Shown: piece by piece, positions 13,690-24,480 of the stretch
Numbering within the stretch: position 1 is the first letter of the stretch
Layout of the letters: each line of letters begins with the position of its first letter
NCBI GenBank assembly: GCA_945898185.1
Contig: CAMDHP010000003.1
Location: forward strand, 1-64,000
Origin: Akkermansia muciniphila
GTDB taxonomy: Bacteria > Verrucomicrobiota > Verrucomicrobiia > Opitutales > Opitutaceae
DNA: 64,000 nt
Direction of reading: 5' to 3'
The notes under the pieces: model-generated
Database searches by the model: none
Told to the model about the DNA's origin: nothing
Seen by the model: the letters and a program-made list of their open reading frames with translations, nothing else
Made by a program: the position numbers and the translations under genes

Positions 13690-14562
13690 TCAGGAAATCG
13701 GGCCGGAAGAGGGCGAGGGCCGCAAAGCCCGCCAAAGAGCTTTGCAGGGCCACGCGATGGCGTGGAGCAGGCCACCCACGATGGCGGCGATGGCCAGCAT
13801 CGGAAGACGAAACGCTCGGAGCGCGGGGCCGATGGCACGCTGGAGACCGGGGCGGGTCGAGTAAAACAGGGCGGCGGCGGTGATGATCACGATGCCGATG
13901 AATTTCTGAAACGCGTTAATGTGGATCGGATGGCCGTAGTGGATCGACACGATCTCGACCACAAGGATGGCGCCGACGTAGCCAATGAGTAAAAAGGCGA
14001 CGTGTTCGAGGATGGGGTATTTTTCGAGAAGTTTTAAACACGCGCCCGCGACAAAACGAAGAGCGAGGATGCCGATGAAAACGCCCAGGCACACGATCCA
14101 TAATTTCGGGCTCATCGCGACGGCGGCGACGACGTTGTCCACACTCAGACTGAGATCCATGAGCTCGATAGCGGCCACGGTGGCCCAAAAGCCTCGCGAG
14201 GCGGCGTTGGCCGGCGCGGCATCATGTTTCTCTTCGGCGGCGGTGTTGGTGAAGTGCGCGCACATCAGGTAAACGAGATAGGCGGCGCCCATGATTTTGA
14301 GCCACGGATTCGCAATGATGTAGGCCGCGCCGAGCATCGCGAGGCCTCGAAAAGCGTATGCGCCGATGATACCCCAGCGCAGGGCCTTGCGCTTCTGAGC
14401 CTCGGGCAGGTGATTCGCCATCGCAGCGATAGCGAGAGCGTTATCCACACTGAGCAGACCCTCGATGATAATTAGGGAGATTATGATTGGAATCGCCTCG
14501 ATCCATTCGGCAGCGGAAGGAAGGGCGAAGGCAAGGGGCGGGAGGAGAAGCAGGCTAAGCAT
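13690..14562 (-). CDS. TerC family integral membrane protein
   Basis: IIEGLLSVDNALAIAAMANHLP..ELMDLSLSVDNVVAAVAMSP duplicated SVDN motifs of TerC. Confidence 0.9.
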   Translation of the reverse strand: MLSLLLLPPLAFALPSAAEWIEAIPIIISLIIIEGLLSVDNALAIAAMANHLPEAQKRKALRWGIIGAYAFRGLAMLGAAYIIANPWLKIMGAAYLVYLMCAHFTNTAAEEKHDAAPANAASRGFWATVAAIELMDLSLSVDNVVAAVAMSPKLWIVCLGVFIGILALRFVAGACLKLLEKYPILEHVAFLLIGYVGAILVVEIVSIHYGHPIHINAFQKFIGIVIITAAALFYSTRPGLQRAIGPALRAFRLPMLAIAAIVGGLLHAIAWPCKALWRALRPSPSSGPIS

Positions 14563-14722: not shown

Positions 14723-16246
14723 GTGAACTCCCCCAGCCTAAACACCCCCTCTCTGGCCACCGCGGCGCTCGCCGCGCTTGCCCTTATCGCCCCAGTGGTC
14801 CGCGCCGATCCGCTGCTAAGCTCGTGGCTCACCACGAACTCCACCAAATACGCCCGTATTTACACCAGCACGGCCAACCGTACCGCCGGCATCTCCACTA
14901 CCACTTGGACCGGCCAGATTTCGCCGACCTACGCTGGCATTCACGAAATCAACTACTCCGCCACTTGGGTTTACCTTAAAAACACCGGCCTTGGCGGCTA
15001 CGTCATGGGGCCTTGGAACAACCCCAACCTTCCCAAAAATCAAGGCACCGCCACCAAGGTTTTCCGCTTTCCGCGCACGCCCGTGATTCCCAACACCAAG
15101 ACCCTTACCGGCGTGGGTGTAATCGGGGTCCTTGTGGACGGCGTCTCCATCTACAATACTTCCGACGGTTTCTCCTACTCCACGGCAAACGGAAAGGACG
15201 CCACGCCCAACGGCGGCATCGGCCCGGGCGACCGCATCTGGAACCGCGACGCCTGGCCTAACGAATTCGTGTCCTTCGACTACGCCCTCAACCACGCCCA
15301 GCCGAGCGGCGACTACCACTCCCACGCCAACCCCATCGCGGTCCGCTACCAACTGGGCGACAACGTCAACTACAACCCCTCCACCAAGGTCTACTCCGAA
15401 AACACCGCCACCACCACCTTCACCCACTCCCCTATTATCGGCTGGATGAGCGACGGCCTTCCCTACTACGGCCCCTACGGCTACTCCAGTCCACTCGACG
15501 CCACTAGCGCGGTGCGCCGCATGGTCTCCGGCTACGTCCTCCGCGACGGCTCCTACGGCACCACCAATCTCAGCTCCACCGGGCGCACCACTCTGCCCGC
15601 CTGGGCCCTTGCGGCGCAAAATCGCGCCCAGCTTAATTCGTCCACCCAGTATGGCCCCGCCGTCAATACCGCCTACGCGCTCGGTCATTTCTCGGAGGAC
15701 TACGATTACCTCGGAGATCTCGGCTTCACGCCAGGCGCCACCAGCACCGTAGGCGCCTACACCACCCTTTTCGACCTCAACGAATACAACGTGCGCTTTT
15801 GCGTCACCCCAGAGTTTCCGAGCGGTACTTGGGCCTACTTCGCCACCATCACTTCCACCGGCGCCCCTTGGTATCCCTACAACGCCGGACGTTGGTATTA
15901 CGGCGCCAAGACCGCCGCCGCCAGCACCACAACGGTCATGGCCGCCGATACCCCGCTCACCCAATACTATAGGGGCTCCGCCTCCACCGCCGAGACGTGG
16001 ACCGCCGCGCCCGTCACCCCCTCCGGCACCAACGTCACCATTACCTGGAATGCCGTCGAGGGCGGCACCTATCAGGTCAGCGCCACCAGCGATCTCACGA
16101 ATTGGACAACGCTCACGCCGACCGTCACTGCCACCGGCGGCAACACCGCGACTTTTACCGAAATCGGCGCCACCGCGACCGAGTTCAAACGCTTCTACAA
16201 GATAACGCGCACCGGCCTCGCGACCTACGACGCGGTCGGCTACTGA
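14723..16246 (+). CDS. secreted YHYH-family protein
   Basis: N-terminal signal-like segment; GDYHSHANPIAVRYQLGDN..HSPIIGWMSDGLPYYGPYGYSSPLDATSAVRRMVSGYVLRDG; C-terminal extra domain. Confidence 0.8.
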   Translation: MNSPSLNTPSLATAALAALALIAPVVRADPLLSSWLTTNSTKYARIYTSTANRTAGISTTTWTGQISPTYAGIHEINYSATWVYLKNTGLGGYVMGPWNNPNLPKNQGTATKVFRFPRTPVIPNTKTLTGVGVIGVLVDGVSIYNTSDGFSYSTANGKDATPNGGIGPGDRIWNRDAWPNEFVSFDYALNHAQPSGDYHSHANPIAVRYQLGDNVNYNPSTKVYSENTATTTFTHSPIIGWMSDGLPYYGPYGYSSPLDATSAVRRMVSGYVLRDGSYGTTNLSSTGRTTLPAWALAAQNRAQLNSSTQYGPAVNTAYALGHFSEDYDYLGDLGFTPGATSTVGAYTTLFDLNEYNVRFCVTPEFPSGTWAYFATITSTGAPWYPYNAGRWYYGAKTAAASTTTVMAADTPLTQYYRGSASTAETWTAAPVTPSGTNVTITWNAVEGGTYQVSATSDLTNWTTLTPTVTATGGNTATFTEIGATATEFKRFYKITRTGLATYDAVGY

Positions 16247-16267: not shown

Positions 16268-18121
16268 ATGCTCCCTTTCGCGAGCTTTCCTTCCCTGTGC
16301 CGCCGCTTAGCCCCGGCACTTCTCTTCCTCCTTGCGGGATCCTTGGCCGCGCTCACGGCCTCCCGCGCCTCCGCCACCACCCTCGAACTCACCATCCGCC
16401 CCGTTTTTAACGGAGCGCCCCTCCTGCTCGATTCCCTGCGCTACCAAAACGCGGCTGGCGAGACGCTCTCCGTCACCCGCCTCAGCTACCTCCTCAGCGG
16501 CTTCTCCCTCGAACGCGAAGACGGCACTTGGATCGATCTGCAGGCCCTCTACGCCTGGCTCGATGCCGCGAAACACCGCGACTCCGTTCTGCTCGATGCC
16601 ATCCCCGCCGGACGCTACCGCGCCTTGCGTTTCCACCTCGGCCCAGACCCCGAAGCTAACGTCGCAGACCCTTCGCGCTTCCCCGCCGATCACGCTATGA
16701 ACCCCAATCTCAACGGCCTCCACTGGAGCTGGCAGGGCGGATACATCTTCCTCGCGCTCGAAGGCCTTTACCGCGCGCCCATGCCCTCCCTCAGCGGCCC
16801 GTTCGCTCCCGCATCCCCGGTCGCCGCCGCGCCCGCCCTCAGCGGCTACGCCTACCACCTTGCGCGCGATCCTCAGCGCGCCCGCGTCACCCTTACCGCG
16901 CCGCTCGACCTTACCCACGACGCCGGCGTGGCCCTAAACTTCGATCTCGGCGCACTGCTCAACGCACCACGCCCCCTCTCTTTCGCCCGCGACGGCTCCG
17001 CCACGCACTCGCGCGTCGGCGACCCGGTGGCGGCAGCCCTCGTCGCCAACCTGCGCAGTGCCTTTCGCGTCTCGGGCGTATTCTCTACTGCACCCGCGAT
17101 CAGCCGCCCCTCGCCAGTAAAGCTCCTGTATCTGCCAAAACACTACACGCCCTACCCGTTCAAGATGGGCTCGACCTTTCCCATCCCCGATCTGCCACGC
17201 GACAACCCGCTCATCGAGGAGCGCGTCGCCCTCGGCAAAATCCTCTTCACCGAAACCGCCCTCTCCCGCGATGGCACGCTTTCCTGCGCCTCCTGCCACC
17301 AGCGCGACGCCGCGCTCTCCGATCCGCGCCGCGTAAGCATCGGCGTGGGCAACCTGCCCGGCACCCGCAATGCGATGCCGCTCTTCAATCTCGCTTGGAA
17401 AAACAACTTCTTCTGGGACGGACGCTCCCCTTCGCTCCGCGCGCAGGTCCTCGTTCCCATTGAAGACCACATCGAGATGGACGAGACCCTCGACCGCGTC
17501 GTCGTAAAACTCGCCGCCGCCTCCCTCGACCTCGCGCCCGACTACCCCGCTCTCTTCGACGCCGCCTTCGACTCGCCCGAGATCACCGCCGAGAAACTCT
17601 CCCTCGCGCTCGAACAGTTTCTTTTAACCCTCACCGCGTATGATTCGAAGTTCGACCGCGCCCTGCGCGGCCAAGCGAGCCTCACCGCCGATGAGCAGCG
17701 CGGTTTTGAGTTGTTCATGACCGAGAATGACGCCCGCACCGGCCAGCGCGGGGCGGACTGTTTTCACTGCCACGGCGGTCCGCTTTTCAGCGACCACCAG
17801 TTTCACAACAACGGCATCGCCCCCGACACCGCCGATACCGGACGCGAGCGGGTTACCGGCCTCGCCGCTGATCGCGGCAAGTTCTCCACCCCCAGCCTGC
17901 GCAACATCGCACGGAGCGCACCGTATATGCATGACGGACGTTTCACCACGCTTGAGGAAGTCGTCACCCACTACAGCAAGGGCGTCGTCCGCACGCCCAC
18001 CCTCGACCCTAACCTCGCCAAGCATCCCGACGGTGGCCTCCATCTGGACGAGGATGAGAAACGCGCGCTTGTCGCGTTTCTCCGCACGCTGACCGATGCG
18101 CCACCAGCTGCCGCGCGCTGA
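16268..18121 (+). CDS. MbnP-like domain fused to di-heme cytochrome c peroxidase (MbnH/MauG-like)
   Basis: Signal peptide. MbnP-like N-terminal half (LELTIRPVFNGAPLLLDSLRYQNAAGETLSVTRLSYLLSGF..MNPNLNGLHWSWQGGYIFLALEG). C-terminal half with CASCH (17285-17299) and CFHCH (17759-17773) heme sites, all in one uninterrupted frame. Confidence 0.85.
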   Translation: MLPFASFPSLCRRLAPALLFLLAGSLAALTASRASATTLELTIRPVFNGAPLLLDSLRYQNAAGETLSVTRLSYLLSGFSLEREDGTWIDLQALYAWLDAAKHRDSVLLDAIPAGRYRALRFHLGPDPEANVADPSRFPADHAMNPNLNGLHWSWQGGYIFLALEGLYRAPMPSLSGPFAPASPVAAAPALSGYAYHLARDPQRARVTLTAPLDLTHDAGVALNFDLGALLNAPRPLSFARDGSATHSRVGDPVAAALVANLRSAFRVSGVFSTAPAISRPSPVKLLYLPKHYTPYPFKMGSTFPIPDLPRDNPLIEERVALGKILFTETALSRDGTLSCASCHQRDAALSDPRRVSIGVGNLPGTRNAMPLFNLAWKNNFFWDGRSPSLRAQVLVPIEDHIEMDETLDRVVVKLAAASLDLAPDYPALFDAAFDSPEITAEKLSLALEQFLLTLTAYDSKFDRALRGQASLTADEQRGFELFMTENDARTGQRGADCFHCHGGPLFSDHQFHNNGIAPDTADTGRERVTGLAADRGKFSTPSLRNIARSAPYMHDGRFTTLEEVVTHYSKGVVRTPTLDPNLAKHPDGGLHLDEDEKRALVAFLRTLTDAPPAAAR

Positions 18122-22493: not shown

Positions 22494-23549
22494 CTAGTAG
22501 AAGTAGGTGAGGCTGAGGGAGCCGAAGACCTGGGCGTCGGGCTGGCCTTTGAATTCTTTGGTGCGGAAGGCTTGGGCATAGGTGAACTGCCAGCTTGTAG
22601 TGCCAATGCCGATACCAGTGACGAAGTCGCCGACTAAGGGGCGCTTGGCGATAGAGGGGCGGTCGTTGAAGGTGTTACCGTCGAGGGTGAGGTCGCGAGC
22701 GACGGCGCGGCCGTCCACCTGGCCAAAGAGCCAGATGCCGAAGGGGGCGCGGTGGGAGGCGTTGGAGTCGCCGGAAGGGCGGATGAGGTTGGTGCCGAAG
22801 TCGGCGGGGAGAGCGTAGCCGAGGCGGACGGAAGCGCCCGCGTTGGCGTAGGTGAAAATGTTGCCGGCGCTGAAGCCGGCGTGGGGAATTAAGTCGGCAC
22901 TGAGGCCAGTGCGGGCGCCGGAGCTGGAGAGGCGCCACTTGTGCTCGTAAACGAGGTTCAGGCCAGGCTCGCTATCGAGCTGGTTGTCCCAGCCTTTCGC
23001 GGTCTCGACGTTGATGAGTTTGTGGTAGTTGTTTTGGACGAACTCGCCGAGTGCCCAGTCGCCGCCGCCGGCGCCGAGCTGGACCTCGACGGTGGAGAGG
23101 CGGGCGTGGGTTTCGCCGGAGGCAGCGGGGTAGTAACTTTGGAAGGTAAACCCGGCGTAGAGCCAGGCGGCGTAGGGGCGGTCGGCGGGCTGGTAGAGAG
23201 TGGTTTGGGTGTCGGTGGGAGTGTAGATCTGATGCCCGAGGGAGAGGCCAAGCTTGGGGATGGCGTGGTCGGTCATGAGCGGCCGCAGGGCGCGGGAGAG
23301 GGCGCGCAGGGGGCCAGGCACGGTATCGCTGTCGAAGGCGCGGAGGTTGGCGGAGAGGACCGAGAGTTTTATGCCGTCGGTGTAGTTGCGATCGGTGCCA
23401 GCGAACTTGTCGTTCTCGATGTAGAGCGAAAGAGAGCCAAAGCGGAGCTCATCGGACTCGACGGCGGCGGCAGGAATGGCCGCGGGCGCGGCGGTTTGAG
23501 CGAAAGAAGCGAGCGGAAGGCAGGCGGAGAGCAGAAAGAAGCGGCGCAT
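22494..23549 (-). CDS. LpxR-family lipid A deacylase / outer membrane protein
   Basis: SLYIENDKFAGTDRNYTDGIKLSVLS..GHQIYTPTDTQTTLYQPADRPYAAWLYAG; signal peptide MRRFFLLSACLPLASFAQ. Confidence 0.88.
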   Translation of the reverse strand: MRRFFLLSACLPLASFAQTAAPAAIPAAAVESDELRFGSLSLYIENDKFAGTDRNYTDGIKLSVLSANLRAFDSDTVPGPLRALSRALRPLMTDHAIPKLGLSLGHQIYTPTDTQTTLYQPADRPYAAWLYAGFTFQSYYPAASGETHARLSTVEVQLGAGGGDWALGEFVQNNYHKLINVETAKGWDNQLDSEPGLNLVYEHKWRLSSSGARTGLSADLIPHAGFSAGNIFTYANAGASVRLGYALPADFGTNLIRPSGDSNASHRAPFGIWLFGQVDGRAVARDLTLDGNTFNDRPSIAKRPLVGDFVTGIGIGTTSWQFTYAQAFRTKEFKGQPDAQVFGSLSLTYFY

Positions 23550-23562
23550 GGAAAGGGGAATT

Positions 23563-24480
23563 TTAGGCGGGGGCCTGCCAGCGGCCGTAGATTCCGCACG
23601 GGAGGACCTTGCCGATTGCCCCGTCAGCTTGGATAGGGAGGCCAATTTCACCGCCTTCGAGGGTGCCGCCGAGGTCGTCCAGGAGGGAGTGGAGGAGGTT
23701 CACCACTACGGTGGGCGAGAGGCGGGCGGTGTAGGCGTTGATGAGGAAGAAGACAGGTTGCGGAGTGAGGATCTCACGGCATTCGCGGAGGAGTTCCCAA
23801 AGGCTGTCTTCGAGGCGCCACATCTCGCCGCCGGTGCCACGGCCGTAAGTGGGTGGGTCCATGATGATGGCGTCGTAGCGGCGGCCGCGCTTGATCTCGC
23901 GACGGACGAATTTGAGACAGTCGTCCACGATGTAGCGAATGGGGGCCTCGGCGAGGCCGGAGAGGGCGGCGTTTTCCTTGCACCATTTGACCATACCCTC
24001 GGAGGCGTCCACGTGGGTAACGCTGGCGCCGGCCTTGGCGGCAGCACAGGTGGCGGCGCCGGTGTAGCCGAAGAGATTGAGGACGTTGACCTCGCGGCCC
24101 GTGGCGCGAGCAGCGCGGATGCGCTCGAAGCACCATTCCCAGTTGACCGCCTGTTCAGGGAAAAGGCCGGTGTGCTTAAAACTGGTTGGCTGGATGCGGA
24201 AAGTGAGGCCGAGGCGCTCGTAGCCAATGTTCCAGTTTTCGGGGAGGGGTTTTTTGTATTCCCAGCGGCCACCACCCTGTTCGCTTCGGTGGTAATACCC
24301 GTCCCAGTCGCGCCACTCCGGGCTGCCGGTCTTGGGCCAGATGACCTGCGGATCGGGGCGCACGAGGGTAAATCGGCCCCAGCGTTCCTGCTTCATGCCG
24401 AAGCCGCAGTGGAGCAATTGATAATCACGCCAGCCATCGGCGACGAGGAGGGGGGAGCGTTGGATAACGGGAGCGGACAC
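23563..24480 (-). CDS. class I SAM-dependent rRNA methyltransferase (RlmI/RlmK-like catalytic domain)
   Basis: VLNLFGYTGAATCAAAKAGASVTHVDASEGMVKWCKENAALSG..YDAIIMDPPTYGRG. Confidence 0.87.
   Translation of the reverse strand: MSAPVIQRSPLLVADGWRDYQLLHCGFGMKQERWGRFTLVRPDPQVIWPKTGSPEWRDWDGYYHRSEQGGGRWEYKKPLPENWNIGYERLGLTFRIQPTSFKHTGLFPEQAVNWEWCFERIRAARATGREVNVLNLFGYTGAATCAAAKAGASVTHVDASEGMVKWCKENAALSGLAEAPIRYIVDDCLKFVRREIKRGRRYDAIIMDPPTYGRGTGGEMWRLEDSLWELLRECREILTPQPVFFLINAYTARLSPTVVVNLLHSLLDDLGGTLEGGEIGLPIQADGAIGKVLPCGIYGRWQAPA

Follow-up and report, generated by a model that had tools for sequence, protein, structure and literature searches.

A single-chain fusion of an MbnP domain and a MauG/MbnH-type di-heme domain in Verrucomicrobiota

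The window, a stretch of 64,000 nucleotides, contains a single unbroken open reading frame (ORF) of 617 codons with an ATG start and a TGA stop, preceded by a gene for a YHYH-domain protein. The ORF encodes, in order, a signal peptide, an MbnP domain, and a MauG/MbnH-type di-heme domain, the two domains being separated by a linker of some 37 residues. Counts out of 44 refer to the non-redundant set of fusions recovered, on which all conservation values are based. The features of the locus are as follows.

14723-16246, + strand: YHYH-domain protein (PF14240, 103 bits), directly upstream of the fusion and 21 bases from it; possible copper partner
16268-18121, + strand: MbnP-MbnH-like fusion protein, 617 aa (ORF, Pfam matches, same frame in other genomes)
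16268-16375, + strand: signal peptide, residues 1-36 (judged by eye; the model has a helix of low confidence at residues 10-31)
16376-17083, + strand: MbnP domain, residues 37-272 (Pfam 37-235); PF20243, fold and profile matches to 7L6G
16721-16732, + strand: H152-W153-S154-W155, containing the WxW motif, with W153 as predicted site of kynurenine formation (conservation; alignment to 7l6g)
16856-16858, + strand: H197, candidate copper ligand (invariant, 44/44)
17006-17008, + strand: H247, invariant histidine of the MbnP domain (44/44)
17066-17176, + strand: inter-domain linker, residues 267-303 (length kept, sequence variable)
17195-18100, + strand: di-heme MauG/MbnH-type domain, residues 310-611 (PF03150; best PDB match MbnH 6e1c)
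17285-17299, + strand: heme 1 site, C340-A-S-C343-H344 (44/44)
17414-17416, + strand: W383, matching the inter-heme Trp93 of MauG (44/44; register from MauG Q103, P107, and E113)
17759-17773, + strand: heme 2 site, C498-F-H-C501-H502 (44/44)
17972-17974, + strand: Y569, equivalent in position to the heme-ligand tyrosine of MbnH and MauG, MauG Tyr294 (44/44; aligned with MbnH 6e1c)

The first-pass annotation had described one uninterrupted frame with a signal peptide and three motifs, and all of these are present: the N-terminus (RR, then a hydrophobic stretch, then ASA/T) was judged by eye to be a signal peptide, and LNGLHWSWQGGYIFLALEG, CASCH, and CFHCH lie at residues 148-166, 340-344, and 498-502. 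Two other genes of the window, both on the - strand, encode a YkoY-type TerC metal transporter (13690-14562), divergent from the YHYH gene and with no riboswitch found by Rfam, and an LpxR-family outer-membrane protein (22497-23651; PF09982, 314 bits). A search against PHROGs gave no match.

The N-terminal half matches the Pfam MbnP family (PF20243) over residues 37-235, with 100.1 bits against a cut-off of 27 (1.8e-28). An AlphaFold2 model of the whole fusion, built with 19 orthologues (pLDDT 82.6, pTM 0.81), matched PDB entries over the di-heme half only, and the N-terminal domain was therefore modeled separately on 32 relatives (pLDDT 95); ranks 1-6 of its PDB matches are all chains of the MbnP structure 7L6G (E about 1e-9; TM 0.65-0.67 by query length), and the next match has a value of 0.04. 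A profile of the N-domain alignment found 7l6g as its sole match among PDB sequences (1.9e-6), aligning W153 with the first W of WNW and H197 with the His of MVHVG. The N-terminal half thus scores to an MbnP model and resembles the MbnP fold alone, as had been proposed from its motifs.

The profile searches that the first-pass annotation had suggested gave a divided result: PF20243 and PF03150 were matched above their cut-offs, and the NCBIfam models TIGR04052 (MbnP_like_WxW; 22.2 against 140 bits on the N-terminal half) and TIGR04039 (MbnH; 214 against 362.85 bits, the best NCBIfam match of the C-terminal half) were matched below theirs. Adjacent pairs of separate genes in Bacteroidota and Deinococcus also score below both NCBIfam cut-offs, whereas the methanobactin pair of Methylocystis passes both, so these models are narrow.

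MbnH reportedly turns the first Trp of the WxW motif of MbnP into kynurenine, and the Cu(I) site of MbnP is said to consist of His, Met, solvent, and this kynurenine. The corresponding W153 and the adjacent H152 are invariant in the 44 fusions, which bears out the expected conservation of this tryptophan among orthologs; W155 is kept in 42, its place being taken by Pro in L131 and L038 (an LHWDP/LHWSP pair), both of which retain W153. Such a pattern would follow from modification of the first Trp; the two proteins offer natural test cases. The residue two positions before the Trp is Met in MbnP and Leu in 41/44 fusions (Met-Ala precedes the Trp in Methylosinus and Methylocystis, Leu-His in the fusion), so the copper site must differ if that Met is a ligand. 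By analogy with CorA and MopE, our guess is that it may be a two-His variant.

The C-terminal half had been called a di-heme cytochrome c peroxidase (CCP)-like domain with two CxxCH sites, a description that stands: PF03150 (CCP_MauG) matches residues 317-470 with 165.7 against 25.6 bits (1.4e-48). In both sequence and fold the closest PDB entry is MbnH 6E1C; classical CCPs also align well, and TIGR03791 (MauG) scores 191 bits against a cut-off of 444. W383, Q393, P397, and E403 are in register with MauG Trp93, Gln103, Pro107, and Glu113 (numbering of Q103, P107, and E113 from PDB titles), and Y569 aligns with a Tyr of MbnH 6e1c and a Tyr of a plasmid-borne MauG. From these alignments the domain is predicted to be of the MauG/MbnH type, in which Tyr replaces Met as heme ligand and an inter-heme Trp is present. 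Invariant positions of the 44 fusions are W153, H152, H197, H247, R71, both CxxCH sites, W377, W383, Q393, E403, and Y569; all residues expected to be needed for the chemistry are conserved. The linker varies in sequence and is 33-49 aa long in 43/44 fusions, with a mode of 36.

PF20243 was found in 22/388 Verrucomicrobiota genomes, and nearly every such domain lies within a frame of 578-814 aa that also contains the di-heme half. The exceptions are an N-terminal fragment (G167) and a gene broken by apparent frameshifts (G155); the latter spreads over three overlapping frames (L127/L185), and its frameshifts may be real or sequencing errors. The present genome was found to have only one MbnP domain. 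Fusion is thus the usual state in the Verrucomicrobiota sampled, with separate adjacent genes elsewhere, a point absent from the first-pass annotation. In Bacteroidota, 67/248 genomes have the family, but none has a frame of fusion size (longest at most 517 aa), and where loci were examined the MbnP gene is usually followed immediately by the MbnH gene. A search of 72,556 plasmids yielded no full-length fusion (no record with one place covering 80%); sampling outside Verrucomicrobiota, Bacteroidota, and plasmids was thin, and fusions in other phyla are possible.

In a maximum-likelihood tree of di-heme domains all fusions fall in one clade (bootstrap 99, SH-aLRT 96), so the joining of the MbnP and MbnH-like domains probably happened once. 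Two unfused sequences are nested in this clade. L052 is a truncated gene at a contig edge, immediately preceded by an IS3-type transposase frame; the G018 protein (L009/L187) has its own signal-like sequence at the start and appears to be a true loss of the MbnP half, so that its substrate would be some other protein.

The gene neighborhoods fall into mutually exclusive kinds, which the first-pass annotation had missed. Distinct fusion loci number 37, and the 33 with 3 kb or more of upstream sequence could be tested for a YHYH neighbor; 21 of these have a YHYH gene within about 4 kb (19 on the same strand, two on the opposite strand). In the genome to which the window belongs, no second YHYH gene was found. 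Six fusions instead have a protein with a galactose-oxidase/glyoxal-oxidase domain directly downstream. No fusion locus has both neighbors, and several, including one from a genome of the same genus (G010), lack both; beside the separate pairs of Bacteroidota and Deinococcus neither kind of gene was recognized. A search of genome G000 for galactose-oxidase-like domains gave no match, as was also the case for the control genomes.

The galactose-oxidase domain of L047 aligns with solved galactose oxidases (1e-91) and retains the residues (one Cys, two Tyr, and two His) that we take to form the copper radical site in galactose oxidase; they were checked in this one of the six proteins. Some fusions are followed by giant secreted-type proteins in which a galactose-oxidase-type domain is joined to Ig/PA14/lectin modules and to a CCP-like di-heme domain (L047:8739-15713, L042:8749-15747, L173:7485-13499, L184:7111-12999, and L179:6762-13001). 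In the YHYH proteins encoded next to fusions, certain His, Tyr, Trp, Met, and Cys residues are invariant, a set compatible with a metal site.

MbnP, MbnH, and their pairing are already known. The pair encoded in the methanobactin operons of Methylosinus and Methylocystis (PF20243 and TIGR04039; 7L6G and 6E1C) has in common with the fusion both domains, their order, the WxW Trp, two CxxCH sites, the Tyr ligand position, and the conserved His; however, Methylocystis mbnP and mbnH are two genes, the start of one overlapping the stop of the other. The MbnH gene of Methylocystis parvus (L163:4962-6122; WP_016921437.1), which scores 494 bits against the MbnH model, carries the public label 'methanobactin export MATE transporter MbnM', a label also attached to di-heme hits on plasmids of Trichormus and of Diaphorobacter.

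In Bacteroidota and Deinococcus the adjacent mbnP-mbnH-like genes keep the order of the fusion, and many pairs have WxW, but they are unfused; the Bacteroidota di-heme proteins are the nearest relatives of the C-terminal domain. Some Bacteroidota MbnPs lack WxW. One Bacteroidota subfamily, encoded beside a MauG-like gene, has a (W/V)PxMLGGGYH-like sequence in its place (L055, L060, L063, L065, L066, L076, L078, L081, L085, L089, L095, L098, and L100-L103), which suggests a different modified residue or none.

MauG, which acts in tryptophan tryptophylquinone biosynthesis, shares the di-heme domain, inter-heme Trp, Tyr ligand position, and Gln/Pro/Glu register; its substrate, methylamine dehydrogenase, is unfused, whereas the fusion carries its candidate substrate. 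In MopE and CorA kynurenine is part of the Cu(I) site (PMC3912023), a di-heme CCP gene is adjacent (MopE/SACCP in Methylococcus, CorA/CorB in Methylomicrobium), and a two-His site is a possible analog; there, however, the copper protein is separate from the di-heme protein, and MbnP has no marked sequence similarity to MopE/CorA (PMC3621798).

A role in methanobactin synthesis was considered and set aside, because a search of this genome, which is 92% complete, gave no MbnB relative (PF05114); the control genomes gave matches in the same search, and Methylocystis MbnB and MbnC used as queries gave none here either. The earlier remark that the window has no mbnB/mbnC-like gene therefore extends to the assembled genome, and judging from gene content the role of the fusion is most likely independent of methanobactin.

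We consider it probable that the fusion, located in the periplasm or secreted, unites in one polypeptide a copper-binding protein with the di-heme maturase dedicated to it, and is a self-maturing protein with a kynurenine/Cu(I) site that serves secreted copper proteins. Once the protein has been exported and has received its two c-type hemes, its C-terminal domain would react with peroxide (or O2 and electrons); the resulting high-valent state, similar to that of MauG and MbnH, would oxidize W153 to kynurenine in the MbnP domain of the same molecule or of a neighboring one. Kynurenine and conserved histidines (H197, perhaps H152 or H247) would then make up a copper site holding Cu(I), and the loaded protein would store copper or deliver it to secreted copper proteins encoded next door, a galactose-oxidase-type enzyme in some species and here probably the YHYH protein. 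The covalent tethering of substrate to enzyme, which the first-pass annotation had pointed out, follows from the architecture. Self-oxidation of W153, Cu(I) binding, copper delivery, and the status of YHYH as a copper protein are what we infer, delivery being suggested by the gene neighborhood. A copper context recurs in the family: in Deinococcus the separate pair is followed by CopC/CopD, the separate pair of Methylocystis lies within a methanobactin operon, and six fusions precede the galactose-oxidase-like proteins. Only tentatively can this be extended to a phylum-wide self-maturing kynurenine-copper protein that loads secreted copper enzymes, either galactose-oxidase-type enzymes or YHYH proteins as an unrecognized copper-protein family.

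The di-heme domain might instead act on another protein, such as a Trp or Tyr of the YHYH or galactose-oxidase-like neighbor, with MbnP as a docking or copper-sensing module. The conserved neighbors of most fusions, the many invariant aromatic and His residues of the YHYH proteins, and the persistence of a MauG-like domain without MbnP in G018 would all fit such an arrangement; we regard it as unlikely, since the Trp that MbnH oxidizes is kept in every fusion and would be needless for mere docking, and the MbnP/MbnH pairing reaches far beyond these neighbors (PMC3621798).

An ordinary cytochrome c peroxidase tethered to a copper or redox module, detoxifying peroxide with no Trp modification, would be consistent with CCP/MauG superfamily membership and with the good alignment to classical CCPs, but it is also unlikely given the Tyr at the heme-ligand position in all 44 fusions (as in MbnH and MauG), MbnH as the best match in sequence and fold, and an invariant W153. 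Merging of two adjacent genes by sequencing or assembly error, an arrangement made conceivable by the adjacent mbnP-mbnH genes common elsewhere and raised in the first-pass annotation as a possible flaw, is refuted by equivalent frames of 46-79% identity in independent genomes, full-length fusions in dozens of independent assemblies (one a single-contig genome), a conserved linker length, and the well-supported single clade.

In the literature searched, which had the central MbnP/MbnH papers outside its coverage, we found no mention of the fusion and no description of its two exclusive neighbors; domain databases may already list the PF20243+PF03150 architecture. The fusion bears on the question of what MbnP and MbnH do outside methanobactin: the presence of enzyme and substrate in one chain is strong evidence that the two work together, it fixes their stoichiometry, and it provides a single construct for testing whether kynurenine forms, whether copper is bound, and how electrons are transferred. 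The linked genes, for a copper radical oxidase or a YHYH protein but never both, offer concrete candidates for the purpose of the copper site, and the YHYH linkage gives the YHYH family a testable function.
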